From positions 1,831,501 to 1,895,500 of the forward strand of contig NZ_CP076723.1 in the NCBI RefSeq assembly GCF_018986915.1: DNA of 64,000 bases, written 5' to 3'. This DNA comes from Geomonas oryzisoli. Its GTDB lineage: Bacteria > Desulfobacterota > Desulfuromonadia > Geobacterales > Geobacteraceae. A program made the position numbers and the translations under genes. The notes under the pieces are model-generated. The model was given only the letters and a program-made list of their open reading frames with translations. It was not told the DNA's origin and searched no databases. This document shows positions 1,599 to 46,411 of this stretch, in pieces (the first letter of the stretch is position 1; each line of letters opens with the position of its first letter).

Positions 1599-1640
1599 GG
1601 GGACTGGCTCCGCAGGTGCCTGTCCTCTTAGTGCTTGGGT
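1599..1640. repeat. Family B palindromic repeat, solo copy with TTAGTGCTTG flank
   Basis: Contains the arms GGGGACTGGCTCCG and CAGGTGCCTGTCC followed by the TTAGTGCTTG flank. This matches the left half of the composite element at 7014-7162. The right half is missing or too decayed to recognise; GGCGCGTTCGG near 1660 may be a remnant. Confidence 0.7.
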
Positions 1641-6030: not shown

Positions 6031-6069
6031 GTGCGCCAATGAAATCCGATTGGAGTCGTGGAGGTGGCA

Positions 6070-6861
6070 ATGGCAACAACTTTTGACGAAAAGCTGGCAA
6101 GCGGCATAGCGCAGATGGAGTCCGGCGAATACGCCCAGGCTGTCGAGGCTTTCAAGGGTTGCATCGCGCTGGAGCCCCAGAATGCGGAGGGATACTTCTA
6201 CCTCGGCGAGGCACACTCCGAGGCGGGGCAGGCCGATGACGCCATCGCGGCGCTCAAAAAGGGGCTGGAACTGGCACCGGGCGACCTGGACGGTCTGACC
6301 GCCCTGGGCGACGTCTACTTCGAATCGGGCAAGCACAAGGACGCCCTGGGGTGCTACCGCAAGGTGACCGAACTGCAGCCCAAGGATTGCGACGGCTACG
6401 TCAGCATGGGGCTCGTCTATAACGCCATGGAGCGCGCCGACGATGCGCTCAAGGCCTTCGAGAGGGCGCTGGAGCTCGACCCCGGCAACGTCTTTGCGCT
6501 GAACGCCATGGGGGATCTCTACTACGGTCTGGGCGACAACGAGAAGGCCATCGCCGCCTACCACCGCGGCATCGAGATCGATCCGACCGACGCCACCGCC
6601 CGCTTCAACCTGGGCGAGCTTTACTACGATATGGACGACCTGGAGGCGGCCGAGCGCGAGACCCTGGAGGCGATCCGTCTCGACCCCGATTTCACCATGA
6701 GCTACCTGACCCTGGGGAACATCTGCATCGACCAGGACCGCACCGCGGAGGCCATCAAGCACTTCGAGAATTACCTGAAGCGGGAGCACTCGCCCCAGGC
6801 CAGGGAGATGATCGCGGAGGTGAAGGCGGTGATCGAGGGGCTCAGGGAGGAGATGAAGTAG
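6070..6861 (+). CDS. Tetratricopeptide-repeat protein
   Basis: A 263-residue soluble protein built almost entirely of about seven 34-residue TPR units. Recurrent signatures include AEGYFYLGEAHSEAG, AIAALKKGLELAPGD and AIAAYHRGIEIDPTDA. It has no signal peptide, membrane segment or catalytic domain, so it probably acts as a scaffold for protein partners. The ATG at 6070 is preferred because GGAGG (6060-6064) lies 5 bases upstream; the in-frame GTG at 6058 overlaps that site. Divergent from ptsP, with its own strong promoter and terminator, so probably monocistronic. Confidence 0.85.
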   Translation: MATTFDEKLASGIAQMESGEYAQAVEAFKGCIALEPQNAEGYFYLGEAHSEAGQADDAIAALKKGLELAPGDLDGLTALGDVYFESGKHKDALGCYRKVTELQPKDCDGYVSMGLVYNAMERADDALKAFERALELDPGNVFALNAMGDLYYGLGDNEKAIAAYHRGIEIDPTDATARFNLGELYYDMDDLEAAERETLEAIRLDPDFTMSYLTLGNICIDQDRTAEAIKHFENYLKREHSPQAREMIAEVKAVIEGLREEMK

Positions 6862-6924
6862 AGGCAGGGGCTGGGAGCTAGACTGGGGACCAGGGACTGG
6901 CTGAAGAACATAACTGATAAAGGG

Positions 6925-6957
6925 AAGGGGAGCCGAAGGGGGCTCCCCTTTTTTTTG
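6925..6957 (+). terminator. Rho-independent terminator after the TPR gene
   Basis: AAGGGGAGCC and GGCTCCCCTT flank a short loop and are followed by an unbroken run of T residues. Confidence 0.9.
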
Positions 6958-6964
6958 TATAAAG

Positions 6965-6990
6965 GCAAATCCCCCTTTGACAAGGGGGGG
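6965..6990. repeat. Family A palindromic repeat, copy 2
   Basis: Carries the same CCCCCTTTGACAAGGGGG core as the copy after ferritin and is likewise followed by ACGTGAG-type sequence and then a family B palindrome. Confidence 0.7.
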
Positions 6991-7013
6991 ACGTGAGAGG
7001 GAGGAGGGGAGGA

Positions 7014-7162
7014 GGGGACTGGCTCCGTCAGGTGCCTGTCCCCTTAGTGCTTGTGTAGCGCTTGGGATGCTGCAGTGCTTGGGATGCTGTAGCGCTTGGG
7101 ATGCTGGCTGAGCTGAAAGACGCGTTCCGCGAAAGGGACAGGCACCTTGCGGAGCCTGTCCC
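7014..7162. repeat. Composite palindromic element (MITE/BIME-like), 149 bp
   Basis: Bounded by two inverted copies of an imperfect palindrome. The left copy has arms GGGACTGGCTCCG and CAGGTGCCTGTCCC; the right copy is its reverse. Between them lie a TTAGTGCTTGTG flank, three 17-bp tandem units (7054-7104), and a second flank GGCTGAGCTGAAAGACGCG followed by TTCCGC. The element at 45357-45460 aligns end to end with this one when reversed, apart from the tandem block. Confidence 0.8.
7054..7104. repeat. Three tandem copies of a 17-bp unit
   Basis: Units 7054-7070, 7071-7087 and 7088-7104. The first and third are identical, TGTAGCGCTTGGGATGC. The middle one differs at two positions, TGCAGTGCTTGGGATGC. 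It sits inside the composite repeat and accounts for nearly all of the length difference from the copy at 45357. Confidence 0.9.
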
Positions 7163-7168
7163 TTCTGC

Positions 7169-8272
7169 TTATTTCTTGATCTTCTTGAGCATGGCCTCGA
7201 TGACGTGATGGGCGTCGTTGACGGCGGTGTAGATCAGGTTGGGATGACGCTCTTCCTGGATCGCTCCCTGGTTGATGCGCATGTAGGAGGGGGAGATGGC
7301 GCCGCCGATCACGTAGACCCCCTTCCTGGTCGATTCGAAGTCCGCGGTCAGCAAGAGCAGGCGATCCCCTTCTTTGGCCACCTGGCAGACACCTTCGGCG
7401 CAGGCGATGGTCTGGACGCCGATCTTGTCGTAGATGGAGGTCGGGCCCTGGCTGCCAATGCAGGCGATGACGTTCTTCATGGGGAAGCTCATGGCGTGGT
7501 AGCGCTCGATGCCGCCCTCCATCTTGTCCTCGCTGACCCGGATCACCAGACGGTCCACACCTTCATCATCGACTTCGCCGATCCTCGGGGTCGCGCCGGG
7601 AAGAAGCCTGATGTTGCCGCCCAAAAGGATTTCCTCGCCCAGCCGCTGCGCGGTTTCCTTGTTCACGTCGAAGGTCTCGGCGACATGCGCCCAGTACACC
7701 GGCTCCTTGTCGTTGGCGTTCCTCTTCTCCTTCAGGATGGAGATGATGACGTCGGCGGCCGAGTTGCCGCCGCCGATCACCAGGGTGCGCACGCCGATGT
7801 ATTTCTTCGGGTCGTCGAGCCCCTTGGCGACCATCTTGGCGTCGCCGTACACGGAGAGCTCCTTGGGGATGGAGCTGCCAAAGGCAAGAAGCACCTTCTT
7901 CGCCTGGAAGGTCCCCCTGGAGGTGTGCACCTTCAGGTAGTCGCGCCCCTCTTCGAGGTTCTCGAACTGGGTGTCGGTCAGTACGTTGAGCCCCTCGTGC
8001 TGGACGAAGTGCTGCACGTACTGGATGTATTTCTCAACGGTGACCGGTTTGTCAGGCGGACGCAGTTCCTCGACCAGGAAGGGCTCGGGGTTCTCCTTGG
8101 GTTTGGAGGGATAGACGTTCTTCCCTTCGGGATAGGTGTTGGCGATGCCCTGGAAAATGGACTTGCCGGATTCGATCAAGATATGGCTCAGGCCGTTTTT
8201 GTGACACAAGTAGGCGGCGGCCACACCACCTGGGCCTCCGCCGACGATTAGTACATCGTATTTCTGATCCAT
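7169..8272 (-). CDS. FAD/NAD(P)-dependent oxidoreductase (thioredoxin-reductase/YpdA-like)
   Basis: A flavoprotein of 367 residues with two Rossmann folds. The N-terminal FAD site is DVLIVGGGPGGVAAAYLC and the NAD(P) site is VRTLVIGGGNSAADVIIS near the middle. The C-terminal segment GVYVIGGAISPS corresponds to the second FAD contact. No redox-active CxxC pair is evident, so it is not an ordinary thioredoxin reductase. The YpdA-like or ferredoxin-NADP reductase-like branch fits better, with substrate unknown. ATG at 8272 follows GAGGAG on the minus strand. Convergent with the TPR gene and ends 6 bases before the composite repeat. Confidence 0.8.
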   Translation of the reverse strand: MDQKYDVLIVGGGPGGVAAAYLCHKNGLSHILIESGKSIFQGIANTYPEGKNVYPSKPKENPEPFLVEELRPPDKPVTVEKYIQYVQHFVQHEGLNVLTDTQFENLEEGRDYLKVHTSRGTFQAKKVLLAFGSSIPKELSVYGDAKMVAKGLDDPKKYIGVRTLVIGGGNSAADVIISILKEKRNANDKEPVYWAHVAETFDVNKETAQRLGEEILLGGNIRLLPGATPRIGEVDDEGVDRLVIRVSEDKMEGGIERYHAMSFPMKNVIACIGSQGPTSIYDKIGVQTIACAEGVCQVAKEGDRLLLLTADFESTRKGVYVIGGAISPSYMRINQGAIQEERHPNLIYTAVNDAHHVIEAMLKKIKK

Positions 8273-8364
8273 GGTGCTCCTCGCGGGTCTTTCACTGGAT
8301 GTTCTATAACGGTACAACTATACACGTTTAGCCGGGGGCTTCCTAGCAATAATGAGAAGCGGGC

Positions 8365-15119: not shown

Positions 15120-15132
15120 CACAGGAGTGGGC

Positions 15133-17361
15133 ATGAAGCCGTACCACCAGATCTTTCCGAATGCGGCCGGGGGCACCATGACCCTGGAGCTGCTGGCGCA
15201 AAGTGGTCGGATCCCGAAGGGGAGCTACGCCTTCGTCGAGTGCTACTGCACCAGTCCCGGGTGCGACTGCCGCCGGGTCACCCTGTTGGTGCTGGACCAT
15301 AAACAGCGGCAAAAAGCGATGATCAGCCTGGGCTTCGACGGCGACGGTCCCTTCTCGGGTCCCTACCTGGACGGTTCCAGCTACCAGGTTCCCTACGCCC
15401 CTGAGCTCCTCGATTTCTGCGTGCATACCCTCAACTCCCGGCCGGACTGGGTGGAGCGGATGTACCGGCGCTACCGTGAAGTGCGGGAACTGATCGACGG
15501 CATCCCCTACCGCGGCAGGCCGTTCCCGCTCCCCGGCGACCTTTTCTACCGTGCCATGCCGGCGCCGGACCTGGAGAGAATGCTCACCGAGTCGGTCCGG
15601 CACGGCTTCACCCCCAGCTGCCCCCAGCCCCCCTGCGCCGGACAGGGGGAGCCGTCGGGGACCATGCGCCTGGTCGATCTGTACGCCCGATCCGGGGTGA
15701 GCGCGCCGGTATCGATCCTGCTCACCCTGCAGGATGAGCTGCACCGCCACCTCCTGGCGGACCCGCTCGCGGTGGAGGAGCTGGCGGCCCTCCTGGCGGC
15801 CCTTGGACGCTGCGCCACTGTTGATCATGACCGGATCTCGGCGGCCCTGAGGATGCTCGCTCTTACCCTTGAGTTCTACCAGGTGGAGACGGCGGGAGGG
15901 CGCCCGGGGGCGAGGCAGCAGCTGCAGCGGCTGCAAAGCGCGCTCGCGCTGCGGGTCTACCGGGAGAGGAGCAGCATGGAGCTGCGCCTCTCGGTGACCG
16001 ACATCCTGGTGCGCAGCCGCTTGAACCTGATCCCCGAGTTGCAGGCCATCTGCCGCGAGGGGGAGGGTGAGGCGGAGGGACGACTCGATCTGACCGCGGC
16101 CTCGAGTGAGGAGTTCGTTCCCGGCATACTCAGGCATTTCGCCTCGGCGGGGCTGACCTGTCCCTTTGCCGGCGCGCAGGAGATGCTGGAACTGTTCGCG
16201 GTGAACGACCCGGAGCTGAGGCCGGGGCTGACCTGGGAACTGCTCACCGCCGATGCGCCGTTTCTGCGCGAGATCGCCGCACTGCTCATCTTCAACGCCG
16301 AGCCGGAGCTCTCCCGCGAGGTGGCCCGCATGCTGGTCTCGGTGGCGGGGGCGACGCTCACGCCCACTACGCTGCGGCGCCTGATCATGGCCCGCAACTG
16401 GTTTCCGGAACCGACCCGAAGCATCGTGGACCAGACCATCAGCAACGCGCGCCGCGCCCGGGTGCCGTGCGCCCACCTGGAGCCCCCGGACGAGGAGGCG
16501 GTGTACGCCAGCTGCCTGGACGGCTCGGGCATGCAGGTGTTCCACGTCATCGTCGCGGACCAGGCCGCCTATGCCGGCTGCACGCTGATGCTGCAGGAGG
16601 GGGGCGGCATCGTCGACTGCACCGTGGTGCGCCTGGAGACCCGCAGGGACAGGGAGGATTTCGTCAGCACCGCCCGCAGCCAGCGCTGCTGCCTCCAGTC
16701 GACCGGCGAATACCTGGACCGCCGCGTGGGGATGGCGATCGCGGCCGGGAGCGAAGCGGGCCGCGTGCCGGGACACTGGCTGGTGCGGGCTGCGGAGCTC
16801 TTGGGGCGCGACCACTGGAAAGGATGCCTCCTGGACCCTCGGGAGACGCTGCGGCAACTGGGGGAAGAGGTTGTAGGGGACGGGGGAAAAGGGGACAGGC
16901 ACCTGCGGAGCCAGTCCCCACTGCGGAGCCAGTCCCCAGAGGCCGACGACGGTCCCAGCGCGGAACTGCTCGCCCTGGAGGAGTCGGGACAGTGGCACCG
17001 CTACCGCGCGCTGTTCGGCAACTGGCGGGTGGAGGGAAGCGCCGTCGATCGCGTCATCGAGTCGGCGCGCGCTGGGAGAAGCACGGTCAAGACAGCCACT
17101 GTGCTGGAGCGGCTGTGCGACCAGGTCCTGGAGCAGCAGCGCCCCGTTCTCCTGGAACGGCTGGTGCTGCAGACGCTCTGGCTGAAGGCGGCGGCAGGGG
17201 AGGCGCCCATCCGCTGGCAGCAGATGTATCACGTGGCGCAGGCAGTCGCCGACCAGACCATAGCACTAAAAGAGATTCCGTTGGCAGTATCGATAGCACG
17301 GCAGAGTTACACGGCATACCGCAAACGTAACGAAAACAGCAGGCAGGGGAGTGGCAGTTAG
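15133..17361 (+). CDS. Conserved-looking 742-residue protein of unknown function
   Basis: Not recognised. ATG at 15133 follows AGGAG by 5 bases. The N terminus has a cysteine cluster VECYCTSPGCDCRRV (about residues 36-50) that could bind zinc or another metal, then PFSGPYLDGSSYQVPYAPELL. The middle (about 200-480) is mostly helical and leucine-rich, suggesting helical repeats, and a second Cys/His-poor domain follows. Residues about 587-602 are encoded by an inserted family B palindrome plus an 18-bp tandem duplication (16891-16938), giving two LRSQSP units. The frame is kept, so the insertion probably falls in a surface linker. No signal peptide or membrane helix. Separated from gmhB by a terminator and followed 3 bases later by the permease gene. 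Confidence 0.75.
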   Translation: MKPYHQIFPNAAGGTMTLELLAQSGRIPKGSYAFVECYCTSPGCDCRRVTLLVLDHKQRQKAMISLGFDGDGPFSGPYLDGSSYQVPYAPELLDFCVHTLNSRPDWVERMYRRYREVRELIDGIPYRGRPFPLPGDLFYRAMPAPDLERMLTESVRHGFTPSCPQPPCAGQGEPSGTMRLVDLYARSGVSAPVSILLTLQDELHRHLLADPLAVEELAALLAALGRCATVDHDRISAALRMLALTLEFYQVETAGGRPGARQQLQRLQSALALRVYRERSSMELRLSVTDILVRSRLNLIPELQAICREGEGEAEGRLDLTAASSEEFVPGILRHFASAGLTCPFAGAQEMLELFAVNDPELRPGLTWELLTADAPFLREIAALLIFNAEPELSREVARMLVSVAGATLTPTTLRRLIMARNWFPEPTRSIVDQTISNARRARVPCAHLEPPDEEAVYASCLDGSGMQVFHVIVADQAAYAGCTLMLQEGGGIVDCTVVRLETRRDREDFVSTARSQRCCLQSTGEYLDRRVGMAIAAGSEAGRVPGHWLVRAAELLGRDHWKGCLLDPRETLRQLGEEVVGDGGKGDRHLRSQSPLRSQSPEADDGPSAELLALEESGQWHRYRALFGNWRVEGSAVDRVIESARAGRSTVKTATVLERLCDQVLEQQRPVLLERLVLQTLWLKAAAGEAPIRWQQMYHVAQAVADQTIALKEIPLAVSIARQSYTAYRKRNENSRQGSGS
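16891..16938. repeat. Family B repeat inside a reading frame, with 18-bp tandem duplication
   Basis: GGGGACAGGCACC and GCGGAGCCAGTCCCC form the palindrome at 16891-16919. The unit CTGCGGAGCCAGTCCCCA is present at 16903-16920 and again, identically, at 16921-16938. The total keeps the surrounding frame open. Confidence 0.85.
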
Positions 17362-44879: not shown

Positions 44880-45341
44880 ATGATATCGAAGAAGACCAAG
44901 TACGGCCTGAAGGCCTTGATTTACCTGGCGCAAAAGTACGACCAGGGGCCGATCCTCATCGCGGACCTGGCCCGGGACGAGAGGATCCCCAAGAAGTTCC
45001 TGGAGAACATCCTGCTCAACCTGAAAAACAGCGGCATCCTGCAGAGCCGCAAGGGAAGGGGCGGGGGGTACTACCTGGGGAGGCCGCCGCACAAGGTCAC
45101 CTTCGGGCAGGCGATCAGGATCATGGAAGGGCCGCTGGCACCGGTTCCCTGCGTGAGCGAGATGGCCTACGCCAAGTGCACTGAGTGCGGCAACGAGGCG
45201 ACCTGCGGCATCAGGCTGGTCATGAAGGACGTGCGCGACGAGATGGCGCGCATCCTGGACGGCACCACTCTCGCGGACGTCCTGAAGAAGATGGACGAAG
45301 CGGAGGCGCGCCAGGAGGACGTGCTGGATTTCTGCATCTGA
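44880..45341 (+). CDS. Rrf2-family transcriptional regulator with cysteine cluster
   Basis: A 153-residue winged-helix DNA-binding protein. The HTH covers about residues 8-65 (KYGLKALIYLAQKY, IADLARDERIPKKFLENILLNL, GILQSRKGRGGGYYLGR). Four cysteines, Cys91, Cys100, Cys103 and Cys109 in CVSEMAYAKCTECGNEATCG, could hold an iron-sulfur cluster, with spacing unlike IscR (C-x8-C-x2-C-x5-C). It lies 10 bases after the transporter, so it probably reports redox or sulfur status to this operon. GAGGAAAGC precedes the ATG. Confidence 0.9.
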   Translation: MISKKTKYGLKALIYLAQKYDQGPILIADLARDERIPKKFLENILLNLKNSGILQSRKGRGGGYYLGRPPHKVTFGQAIRIMEGPLAPVPCVSEMAYAKCTECGNEATCGIRLVMKDVRDEMARILDGTTLADVLKKMDEAEARQEDVLDFCI

Positions 45342-45356
45342 GAGTGTGCGGCAGAA

Positions 45357-45460
45357 GGGACTGGCTCCGTCAGGTGCCTGTCCCTCTAGCGGAACGCTCC
45401 TTTCTGCTCAACCTTGTTTCACAAGCACAAGGGGACAGGCACCTGGCGGAGCCAGTCCCC
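45357..45460. repeat. Composite palindromic element (MITE/BIME-like), 104 bp
   Basis: Two inverted family B palindromes (45357-45385 and 45431-45460) flank CTAGCGGAACGCTCC and CACAAGCACAA. Reversed, it aligns end to end with 7014-7162: palindrome, TTGTGCTTGTG flank, GGTTGAGCAGAAAGGAGCG, TTCCGC, palindrome. It lacks the 17-bp tandem block. Confidence 0.8.
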
Positions 45461-45481
45461 TGACCTGCGAAAGGCGGCGCT

Positions 45482-46411
45482 ATGAAATACGACGTGGTGG
45501 GGCTCGGCGTCTGCACGATGGATCTGCTCATGGTGGTGGATGAACTGCCGGGAAGCGAACTGGTGCAGCGGGCACATGCCTCGGCCCTGGCTGGCGGTGG
45601 CCCGGTGGCCACGGCGCTGGTCGCCCTGGCGCGCCTGGGTGCCCGCACGGCCATGCTGGACCGTGTCGGCGGCGATTTGATCGGCCGCATGATTCTGGCG
45701 GAACTGGAAGCGGAAGGGGTTGATACGTCGGCCATGGTGGTCGATGCCGCCAGCACCTCGTCACAGGCGACCATCCTGGTCAGAAAGCGCGACGGCGCCC
45801 GCGCCATCACCTTCGCGCCCGGGACCTCCGGCGAACTTTCTCCCGACCTGCTGGACGAAACGGTGATCGCCTCCGCGCAGATCCTGCACCTGAACGGTCG
45901 GCACTGGCAGGCCTGCCTGAAGGCAGCCCAGGTGGCACGGCAAGCCGGTGTCCTGGTTTCTTTCGACGGCGGCTCACACCGGTTCCGGCCGGAGCACTTG
46001 GAACTCTTGCCGCTGGTGGACATCTGCATCGTCGCCGAGGAGTACGCGGCGAGCTGCACCGGCGCGTCGTCACCGGAATTGGGGGCGCAGGCGCTCCTGC
46101 AGTACGGCGCCCGGGTGGTCGGGGTTACCAGCGGAACGCGCGGGAGTCTGCTGCTGACCCGGGACGGCGCATCTTTCCAGCAACCGTCCTACCCCGTGGA
46201 GCCGGTTATCGACACCACCGGCGCGGGGGACGCCTACCACGGCGGCTTTCTCTTCGGCCTCGCGCGGGGGCTTTCACTGGAAGACTCTGCCCGCTACGCC
46301 GCGGCGCTGGGCGCCTTGAACACGAGAGCGTTGGGCGGCCGTGCCGCCTTGCCACCCCCATCCGAAGTGCAAGCCTTGCTCTCTGGCGCCCCTCTCACGA
46401 CCACCCCCTGA
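45482..46411 (+). CDS. PfkB-family carbohydrate or nucleoside kinase
   Basis: ATP-dependent sugar or nucleoside kinase of 309 residues. N-terminal substrate site: GLGVCTMDLLMVVDELPG and the glycine-rich ALAGGGPVATALVALARLG. C-terminal PfkB signature 2: DTTGAGDAYHGGFLFGLA (244 onward), with catalytic base Asp250 and the anion-hole GAG. Length and motifs fit ribokinase/adenosine kinase-like enzymes; substrate is not determined. The start follows the composite repeat by about 20 bases, so the repeat lies in the leader of this gene. Its TGA abuts the stop codon of the convergent kinase (TGATCA at 46409-46414). Confidence 0.88.
   Translation: MKYDVVGLGVCTMDLLMVVDELPGSELVQRAHASALAGGGPVATALVALARLGARTAMLDRVGGDLIGRMILAELEAEGVDTSAMVVDAASTSSQATILVRKRDGARAITFAPGTSGELSPDLLDETVIASAQILHLNGRHWQACLKAAQVARQAGVLVSFDGGSHRFRPEHLELLPLVDICIVAEEYAASCTGASSPELGAQALLQYGARVVGVTSGTRGSLLLTRDGASFQQPSYPVEPVIDTTGAGDAYHGGFLFGLARGLSLEDSARYAAALGALNTRALGGRAALPPPSEVQALLSGAPLTTTP

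Follow-up and report, generated by a model that had tools for sequence, protein, structure and literature searches.

Inverted hairpin doublets in Geomonas oryzisoli: a probable REPIN family and its RAYT in related species

Results and Discussion

The window, the whole stretch of 64,000 nucleotides analysed here (G000:C1:1831501-1895500), belongs to the single contig of 4,846,465 bases that makes up the genome G000 of Geomonas oryzisoli. It carries two composite repeats, each lying beside protein-coding genes, together with solo hairpins (Table 1). Both composites are inward-facing doublets of one 27-28-nt hairpin with arms GGGACTGGCTCC/GGTGCCTGTCCC, and the inner flanks differ between the two hairpin units of each composite, defining a Y type and a Z type. 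As a preliminary description of this DNA had claimed, the two composites align end to end when one of them is reversed. The two T/T mismatches that it assigned to the terminal palindromes are present in three of the four hairpins, the exception being the Z unit of composite 1. The spacer of this composite holds three GTGCTTGGGATGCT-like units (read by eye); next to the composite, at 6927-6956, stands another hairpin that resembles a terminator and is accompanied by a T run (by eye). Other interspersed repeats, with AAATCCCCCCTGTCCCCCCTTTGCAAAGGGGGGGACG-like and CCCTCTCCCAGAGGGAGAGGG-like units, occur at about 1560-1597 and at 6966-6996.

Table 1 Composite repeats, solo hairpins and neighbouring genes in window coordinates
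Feature	Position	Strand	Remarks
Solo Y-type hairpin	1600..1626	+	one mismatch in the arms; then CTTAGTGCTTGGG
TPR-type gene, upstream of composite 1	6058..6861	+	matches below cut-offs
Y-type REP hairpin, composite 1 left end	7015..7042	+	inner flank CTTAGTGCTTG; outer flank GAGGAG at 7009-7014
Spacer, composite 1	7043..7134	.	92 nt; short internal tandem repeat; Z inner flank on right
Z-type REP hairpin, composite 1 right end	7135..7162	-	single T/T mismatch; outer flank GCAGAA, as TTCTGC at 7163-7168
Oxidoreductase-like gene, convergent, adjoins composite 1	7169..8317	-	matches below cut-offs
Solo hairpin 16892-16918 with repeated half	16892..16938	-	in frame within ORF 15127-17361 (+); encodes GDRHLRSQSP
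Rrf2-family regulator gene, upstream of composite 2	44880..45341	+	TIGR00738 above cut-off
Z-type REP hairpin, composite 2 left end	45357..45384	+	outer flank GCAGAA at 45351-45356
Spacer, composite 2	45385..45431	.	47 nt, the usual length in G000
Y-type REP hairpin, composite 2 right end	45432..45459	-	
Sugar-kinase-like gene, downstream of composite 2	45482..46411	+	NCBIfam matches all below cut-offs

Sequences resembling the arms are frequent in the window. With up to two mismatches, GGTGCCTGTCCC occurs 23 times versus 11.4 (sd 2.95) in shuffles, none of 100 shuffles reaching 23, and GGGACTGGCTCC occurs 24 times versus 13.5, a count reached by one shuffle in 100. A search of the window against Rfam gave 0 matches at gathering score. 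The solo halves described earlier exist as copies at 1600-1626 and 16892-16918, the second of which turned out to be an in-frame intragenic copy common to four of the five congeners compared. The ORF around it encodes a product of 744 aa with no Pfam match; related in-frame copies are present in G002, G004 (two copies), G010 and G017, and there is none in G006.

The hairpin belongs to a large repeat family. Genome-wide, G000 contains 253 exact GGTGCCTGTCCC arms versus 0 for the reversed-letter control, and inward doublets at 52 places, their exact arms lying 31-61 nt apart (50 among those listed). Single hairpins occur as well as doublets. We catalogued 153 hairpin units in 257,472 bases of fetched G000 DNA, where pairs less than 120 nt apart are inward in 55 of 58 cases (two same-way, one outward), a figure biased by the fact that many stretches were fetched for matching the inward pattern. 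In the first 525 kb, where sites were taken by an exact arm on either strand, all ten close pairs among 36 units are inward. The Y/Z classifier called 39 pairs Y-Z and left 46 of the 153 units unclassified, so the inverted pairing of the two flanks recurs elsewhere in the genome. Pair spacing peaks at 45-51 nt. Copies of GGTGCCTGTCCCC number 181 in G000 and at most five in every other genome of a set of 297 from the phylum, which includes G000 and two other members of the family.

Across the G000 units, the arms are conserved and the spacer is variable. T/T stands at the first place in 117 and at the second place in 150 of the catalogued units. The Y consensus (52 units) reads CTTAGTGCTTGGG inward and a weak GAGGAG outward, the Z consensus (55 units) TCTAGCGGAACGCTCC inward and GCAGAA outward; inspected by eye, these flank consensuses show no GTAG (GT[AG]G) at either hairpin foot. 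A GCAGAA/TTCTGC stem enclosing the Z unit was rejected as a covarying helix, since the exact pair is found in five of 55 units and many others are unpaired. Placement is strongly intergenic: by our own codon-usage scorer, coding frames hold 2 of 152 units versus 1267 of 2000 random window positions, the other 150 examined units being intergenic.

Folded as single-stranded DNA, each composite adopts one long hairpin, at -42.6 kcal/mol (z -5.67) for composite 1 and -44.4 kcal/mol (z -9.27) for composite 2. The whole doublet is more stable than its two ends folded apart in all 49 Z-bearing doublets, with a median gain of 15.1 kcal/mol. The T/T mismatches, which weaken the lone hairpin, disappear once the two units pair with each other.

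Enterobacterial BIMEs are ordered alternating pairs of non-identical Y and Z REP units with mismatched stems. The window family displays the same pairing and mismatched stems, and its REP sequence is unrelated. An ordered pair of non-identical inverted units, likened to a BIME or a MITE in the preliminary description, is a fitting account of the composites, for which REPIN is the precise modern name; the checks proposed there mostly bore it out.

Comparison with relatives points at mobility. Exact arms range from 2 to 383 per genome across 19 Geomonas genomes; among 59 other genomes searched outside the genus, G024 has 67, G023 has 23, G035 has 9 and the others have at most five. Relatives do lack the elements at the same sites. 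With both flanks located, the composite 2 site is occupied in one of 11 congeners (G002) and the composite 1 site in one of 15 (G004); the composite 2 comparison leaves G012 without a usable gap and six congeners without one flank. At the composite 1 site, a Z unit adjoins the downstream gene in G002, where the upstream side is a different one, and G012 and G008 have one flank only and no arm there. Several of the "empty" orthologous sites carry other repeats and hence are not clean ancestral sites; among six orthologous stretches, none gave a clean filled/empty pair for target-site duplication or target preference. Interspersed repeats of other kinds, with AAATCCCCCCTGTCCCCCCTTTGCAAAGGGGGGGACG-like and CCCTCTCCCAGAGGGAGAGGG-like units, are found in the regions orthologous to 6862-7168 and 45342-45481 (L240-L243, L270-L274).

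The existence of a repeat family, the inward doublets, their fold into a long hairpin, the intergenic placement and the presence or absence at orthologous sites together indicate that the composites are very probably REPINs, that is, non-autonomous mobile inverted REP doublets copied by a hairpin-recognising Y1 RAYT. An unlikely alternative is that the hairpins serve the host, as terminator, mRNA stabiliser or nucleoid binding site, and are retained for that reason instead of as mobile elements. Strong intergenic hairpins whose arms are conserved while the spacer varies would suit such a function, and REPs with such roles elsewhere are described in PMC8049555. A role shared at fixed genes, however, is a poor fit to the presence and absence at orthologous sites and to the spread of arm numbers among congeners, and composite 1 already lies beside a separate terminator-like hairpin. 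Host function and mobility are compatible readings and need not exclude each other.

The REPIN reading calls for a transposase, and relatives do have a RAYT that lies between two copies of the palindrome. G004, G012 and G010 carry a short Y1 gene (197, 197 and 234 aa) that stands between two window-type hairpins pointing the same way; RAYT matches tie G004 to Geomonas paludis Red736 and G012 to Geomonas azotofigens Red51. The gene beside these RAYTs looks like comM/yifB. The congener RAYT narrowly passes the NCBIfam cut-off for REP-associated tyrosine transposases (84.2 and 80.7 bits versus 80) and matches PF01797 as well as the E. coli TnpA-REP structure 4ER8 (E 9.5e-6). HFH and YIEGNP can be read in its translation, and no Pfam HTH domain was found in the window-type RAYT. 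A Geomesophilobacter RAYT (L159) at 73% identity is flanked on each side by variant hairpins, and G036, from another genus, has all of its five exact arms gathered within 2.1 kb at a RAYT. An association of the window-type hairpin with RAYTs of other phyla was rejected, as an arm within one mismatch is found at 5 of 80 loci versus 6 of 80 with the reversed-letter control. Among the 80 RAYT loci examined, only L157-L159, all three from Geobacteraceae, show the two arms together as a unit.

The earlier remark that the window lacks a RAYT or other transposase is confirmed for Y1 transposases by a PF01797 search and falls short of the full extent, the cognate RAYT being missing from the whole genome. 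The four PF01797 matches of G000 are all clustered at 4.328-4.331 Mb, two of them full-length (334 and 341 aa) and two short. They were rejected as cognate RAYT: the surrounding 10 kb contains no hairpin, identity reaches about 36% at best, and they fall in another group of the (midpoint-rooted) RAYT tree. The 334-aa gene (L035 2500-4150, G000 ~4.327 Mb) lies between exact inverted repeats of 34 nt, GCAGGGGGACGCCCATGAAATTATGCGTTTCTCT, forming a TIRYT-like element.

Could the doublets still be mobile in G000, driven in trans by the 334- and 341-aa transposases? The presence of two full-length Y1 genes and the good preservation of the arms without a cognate RAYT speak for this possibility, which we nevertheless regard as improbable. 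Both proteins share about 36% identity with the cognate RAYT and belong to another tree group, no hairpin lies near their genes, and the 334-aa gene has inverted repeats of its own with another sequence. Moreover, no two of the 49 G000 doublets compared are more than 93.4% alike. A MITE with TIRs, mobilised by a DDE transposase and without relation to RAYTs, would have inverted ends, short length and high copy number too, but is very unlikely given that Y1 genes of three congeners and G036 are flanked by the window-type hairpin and that single hairpins and direct tandem arrays occur as well.

Under the REPIN reading, the RAYT would recognise the hairpin in single-stranded DNA, nick it and copy the doublet as a single-stranded hairpin, by analogy with what has been proposed for REPINs elsewhere. 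The transposase that probably copied the elements would now be gone from G000 and still present in some relatives. We count several points against this reading, namely that G000 has no cognate RAYT although decay of its arms is not clearly more advanced than in RAYT-bearing relatives, that its doublets are only slightly less alike than those of G004, that the GTAG head is absent, and that the hairpin forms direct tandems in G024. In this genome, from another genus of the family, the hairpin recurs in direct tandem at intervals of ~63 and ~51 nt (L357, L358), not in inward doublets. The same genome contains a short MITE-like element (L361 200-450) made of GGGGACAGGCACCATTTAATGTGC and an inverted partner a few tens of nt apart, a plain-TIR form of the motif.

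The locus that houses the RAYT offers a view of its probable fate. Directly after the ComM-like gene, a REP hairpin stands without a RAYT in G000, G002, G006 and G017, and together with a RAYT in G004, G012 and G010. G000 and G006 also retain CCTTGGCAGATTAG-like sequence resembling the upstream flank of the RAYT. Searching with tblastn, we found no RAYT remnant after the ComM-like gene in the RAYT-less genomes. Where congeners have the RAYT, G000 has a tandem array of a GGCTGAGCCTCCGGCGCTGGGAGTAAATTGAAAA-like unit (L129 2430-2960, ~85.1-85.7 kb). Judged from these sequences, the RAYT was likely lost from the ComM-like locus of G000. That the three RAYT-bearing species each gained the gene independently is the less likely alternative.

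Preservation of the arms does not date this event. Of the arms within one mismatch, after subtraction of the control, the fraction that is exact amounts to 0.79 in G000, 0.82 in G004, 0.79 in G012, 0.63 in G010 and 0.74 in the RAYT-less G002. With no clear difference between RAYT-less and RAYT-bearing genomes, arm decay was rejected as a clock for RAYT loss. Nearest-neighbour identity, for doublets chosen by similarity to the window element, is 0.867 in G000 (n=19 subset), 0.859 in G002 (n=20) and 0.900 in G004 (n=19), the doublets being less alike than in G004 with a one-sided p of 0.052 for G000 and p of 0.008 for G002. Arms so little decayed in a genome without the RAYT indicate that either the loss is recent or something else maintains them. 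As the RAYT was most likely lost in G000, the hairpin family is probably no longer multiplying there.

A wider set of RAYT relatives hints at the source of the hairpin. We took the best 80 of 585 confirmed relatives, from many phyla, of which 75 had enough flank. An inverted repeat around the gene exceeds the shuffled control in 50 of these 75 and strictly matches GGGGWSAS in 19 of the 50, commonly as GGGGACAGGCTACTTTT. The remaining 25 have none, and they include the window-type RAYTs L157-L159, which lack plain TIRs above control and have same-orientation hairpins whose arm GGGGACAG fits GGGGWSAS. The window arm GGGGACAGGCACC has its first ten bases in common with the TIR GGGGACAGGCTACTTTT.

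Geomonas also has a RAYT lineage with 52-58% identity to the cognate RAYT; its members are bounded by plain TIRs in G003 and G006 and by hairpinned TIRs in G014. Copies of the motif number 63 in G005, 26 in G006, 7 in G003 and 108 in G014, where 80 of the 100 arms listed form 40 tight hairpins; 31 hairpins were read in 20 fetched stretches. These stretches (L407-L426) reveal a second dispersed hairpin family, cognate to the G014 RAYT, in which GGGGACAGGCTACTTTT has its inverted partner 25 nt further along. In the RAYT tree, G014, G003, G006 and a TIR-flanked TA06 gene group together (97/91), indicating that the G014 hairpin is likely the derived state. The five window-type RAYTs fall outside the clade of the other 29 (support 96/100); as the root is the midpoint, the tree does not give the direction from TIR to hairpin for the window type.

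Geomonas RAYTs thus end in plain TIRs in two species, in hairpinned and dispersed TIRs in one and in the window-type hairpin in three. The hairpin probably arose from the TIRs of a TIR-flanked Y1 element. A more extended scenario, in which REPs are fused TIR ends of insertion sequences, formed at least twice in Geomonas, with the window type then giving rise to a REPIN doublet that outlived its transposase, is tentative, and we rate its chances slightly below even. The transition from insertion-sequence ends to REPs may have been caught here in one genus.

REPINs with RAYTs are known from Pseudomonas fluorescens SBW25 and others (PMC3116915). The window family resembles them in having two inverted REPs with a spacer, one long hairpin, intergenic placement and single REPs too, and in a RAYT flanked by the same REP, here in relatives. 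It differs in lacking the GTAG head, in arms of the GGGGWSAS kind, in distinct conserved Y/Z flanks and in the missing cognate RAYT of G000. PMC3733652 describes TIRYT/TIRtrons, Y1 transposase homologues with GGGGWSAS ends, some of whose TIRs are self-complementary and dispersed. TIR-flanked RAYT relatives are likewise present here and the window arms fit GGGGWSAS, whereas the T/T-mismatched hairpin amplified as inward doublets, the same-orientation hairpins on both sides of the window-type RAYT and its want of a Pfam HTH domain set the two apart. REP families orphaned by RAYT loss, with many REPs remaining afterwards, figure in PMC3686654 and PMC8049555; the window family likewise has many REPs without a RAYT and differs in that its arms show no clear decay.

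Conclusions

REPINs, RAYT loss and intragenic REPs have already been described (PMC3116915, PMC3686654, PMC8049555, PMC3733652, PMC6006769, PMC2817692). We found no publication on this Geomonas/Geobacter repeat family in the open-licence literature. What is new here is a REPIN family without a GTAG head, with GGGGWSAS-type arms and with no RAYT in this genome. It extends REPIN biology to Geobacteraceae and to GTAG-less REPs, and cautions that a high number of REPs is no proof of a resident RAYT. The family touches on the open questions of the way in which transposons give rise to REPs and of how long REPs survive in the absence of the transposase. A single genus shows apparent stages, from plain TIR through hairpinned TIR, hairpin REP and REPIN doublet to doublets without a RAYT, and also offers genomes that differ widely in arm number and a locus at which the RAYT is present or gone.
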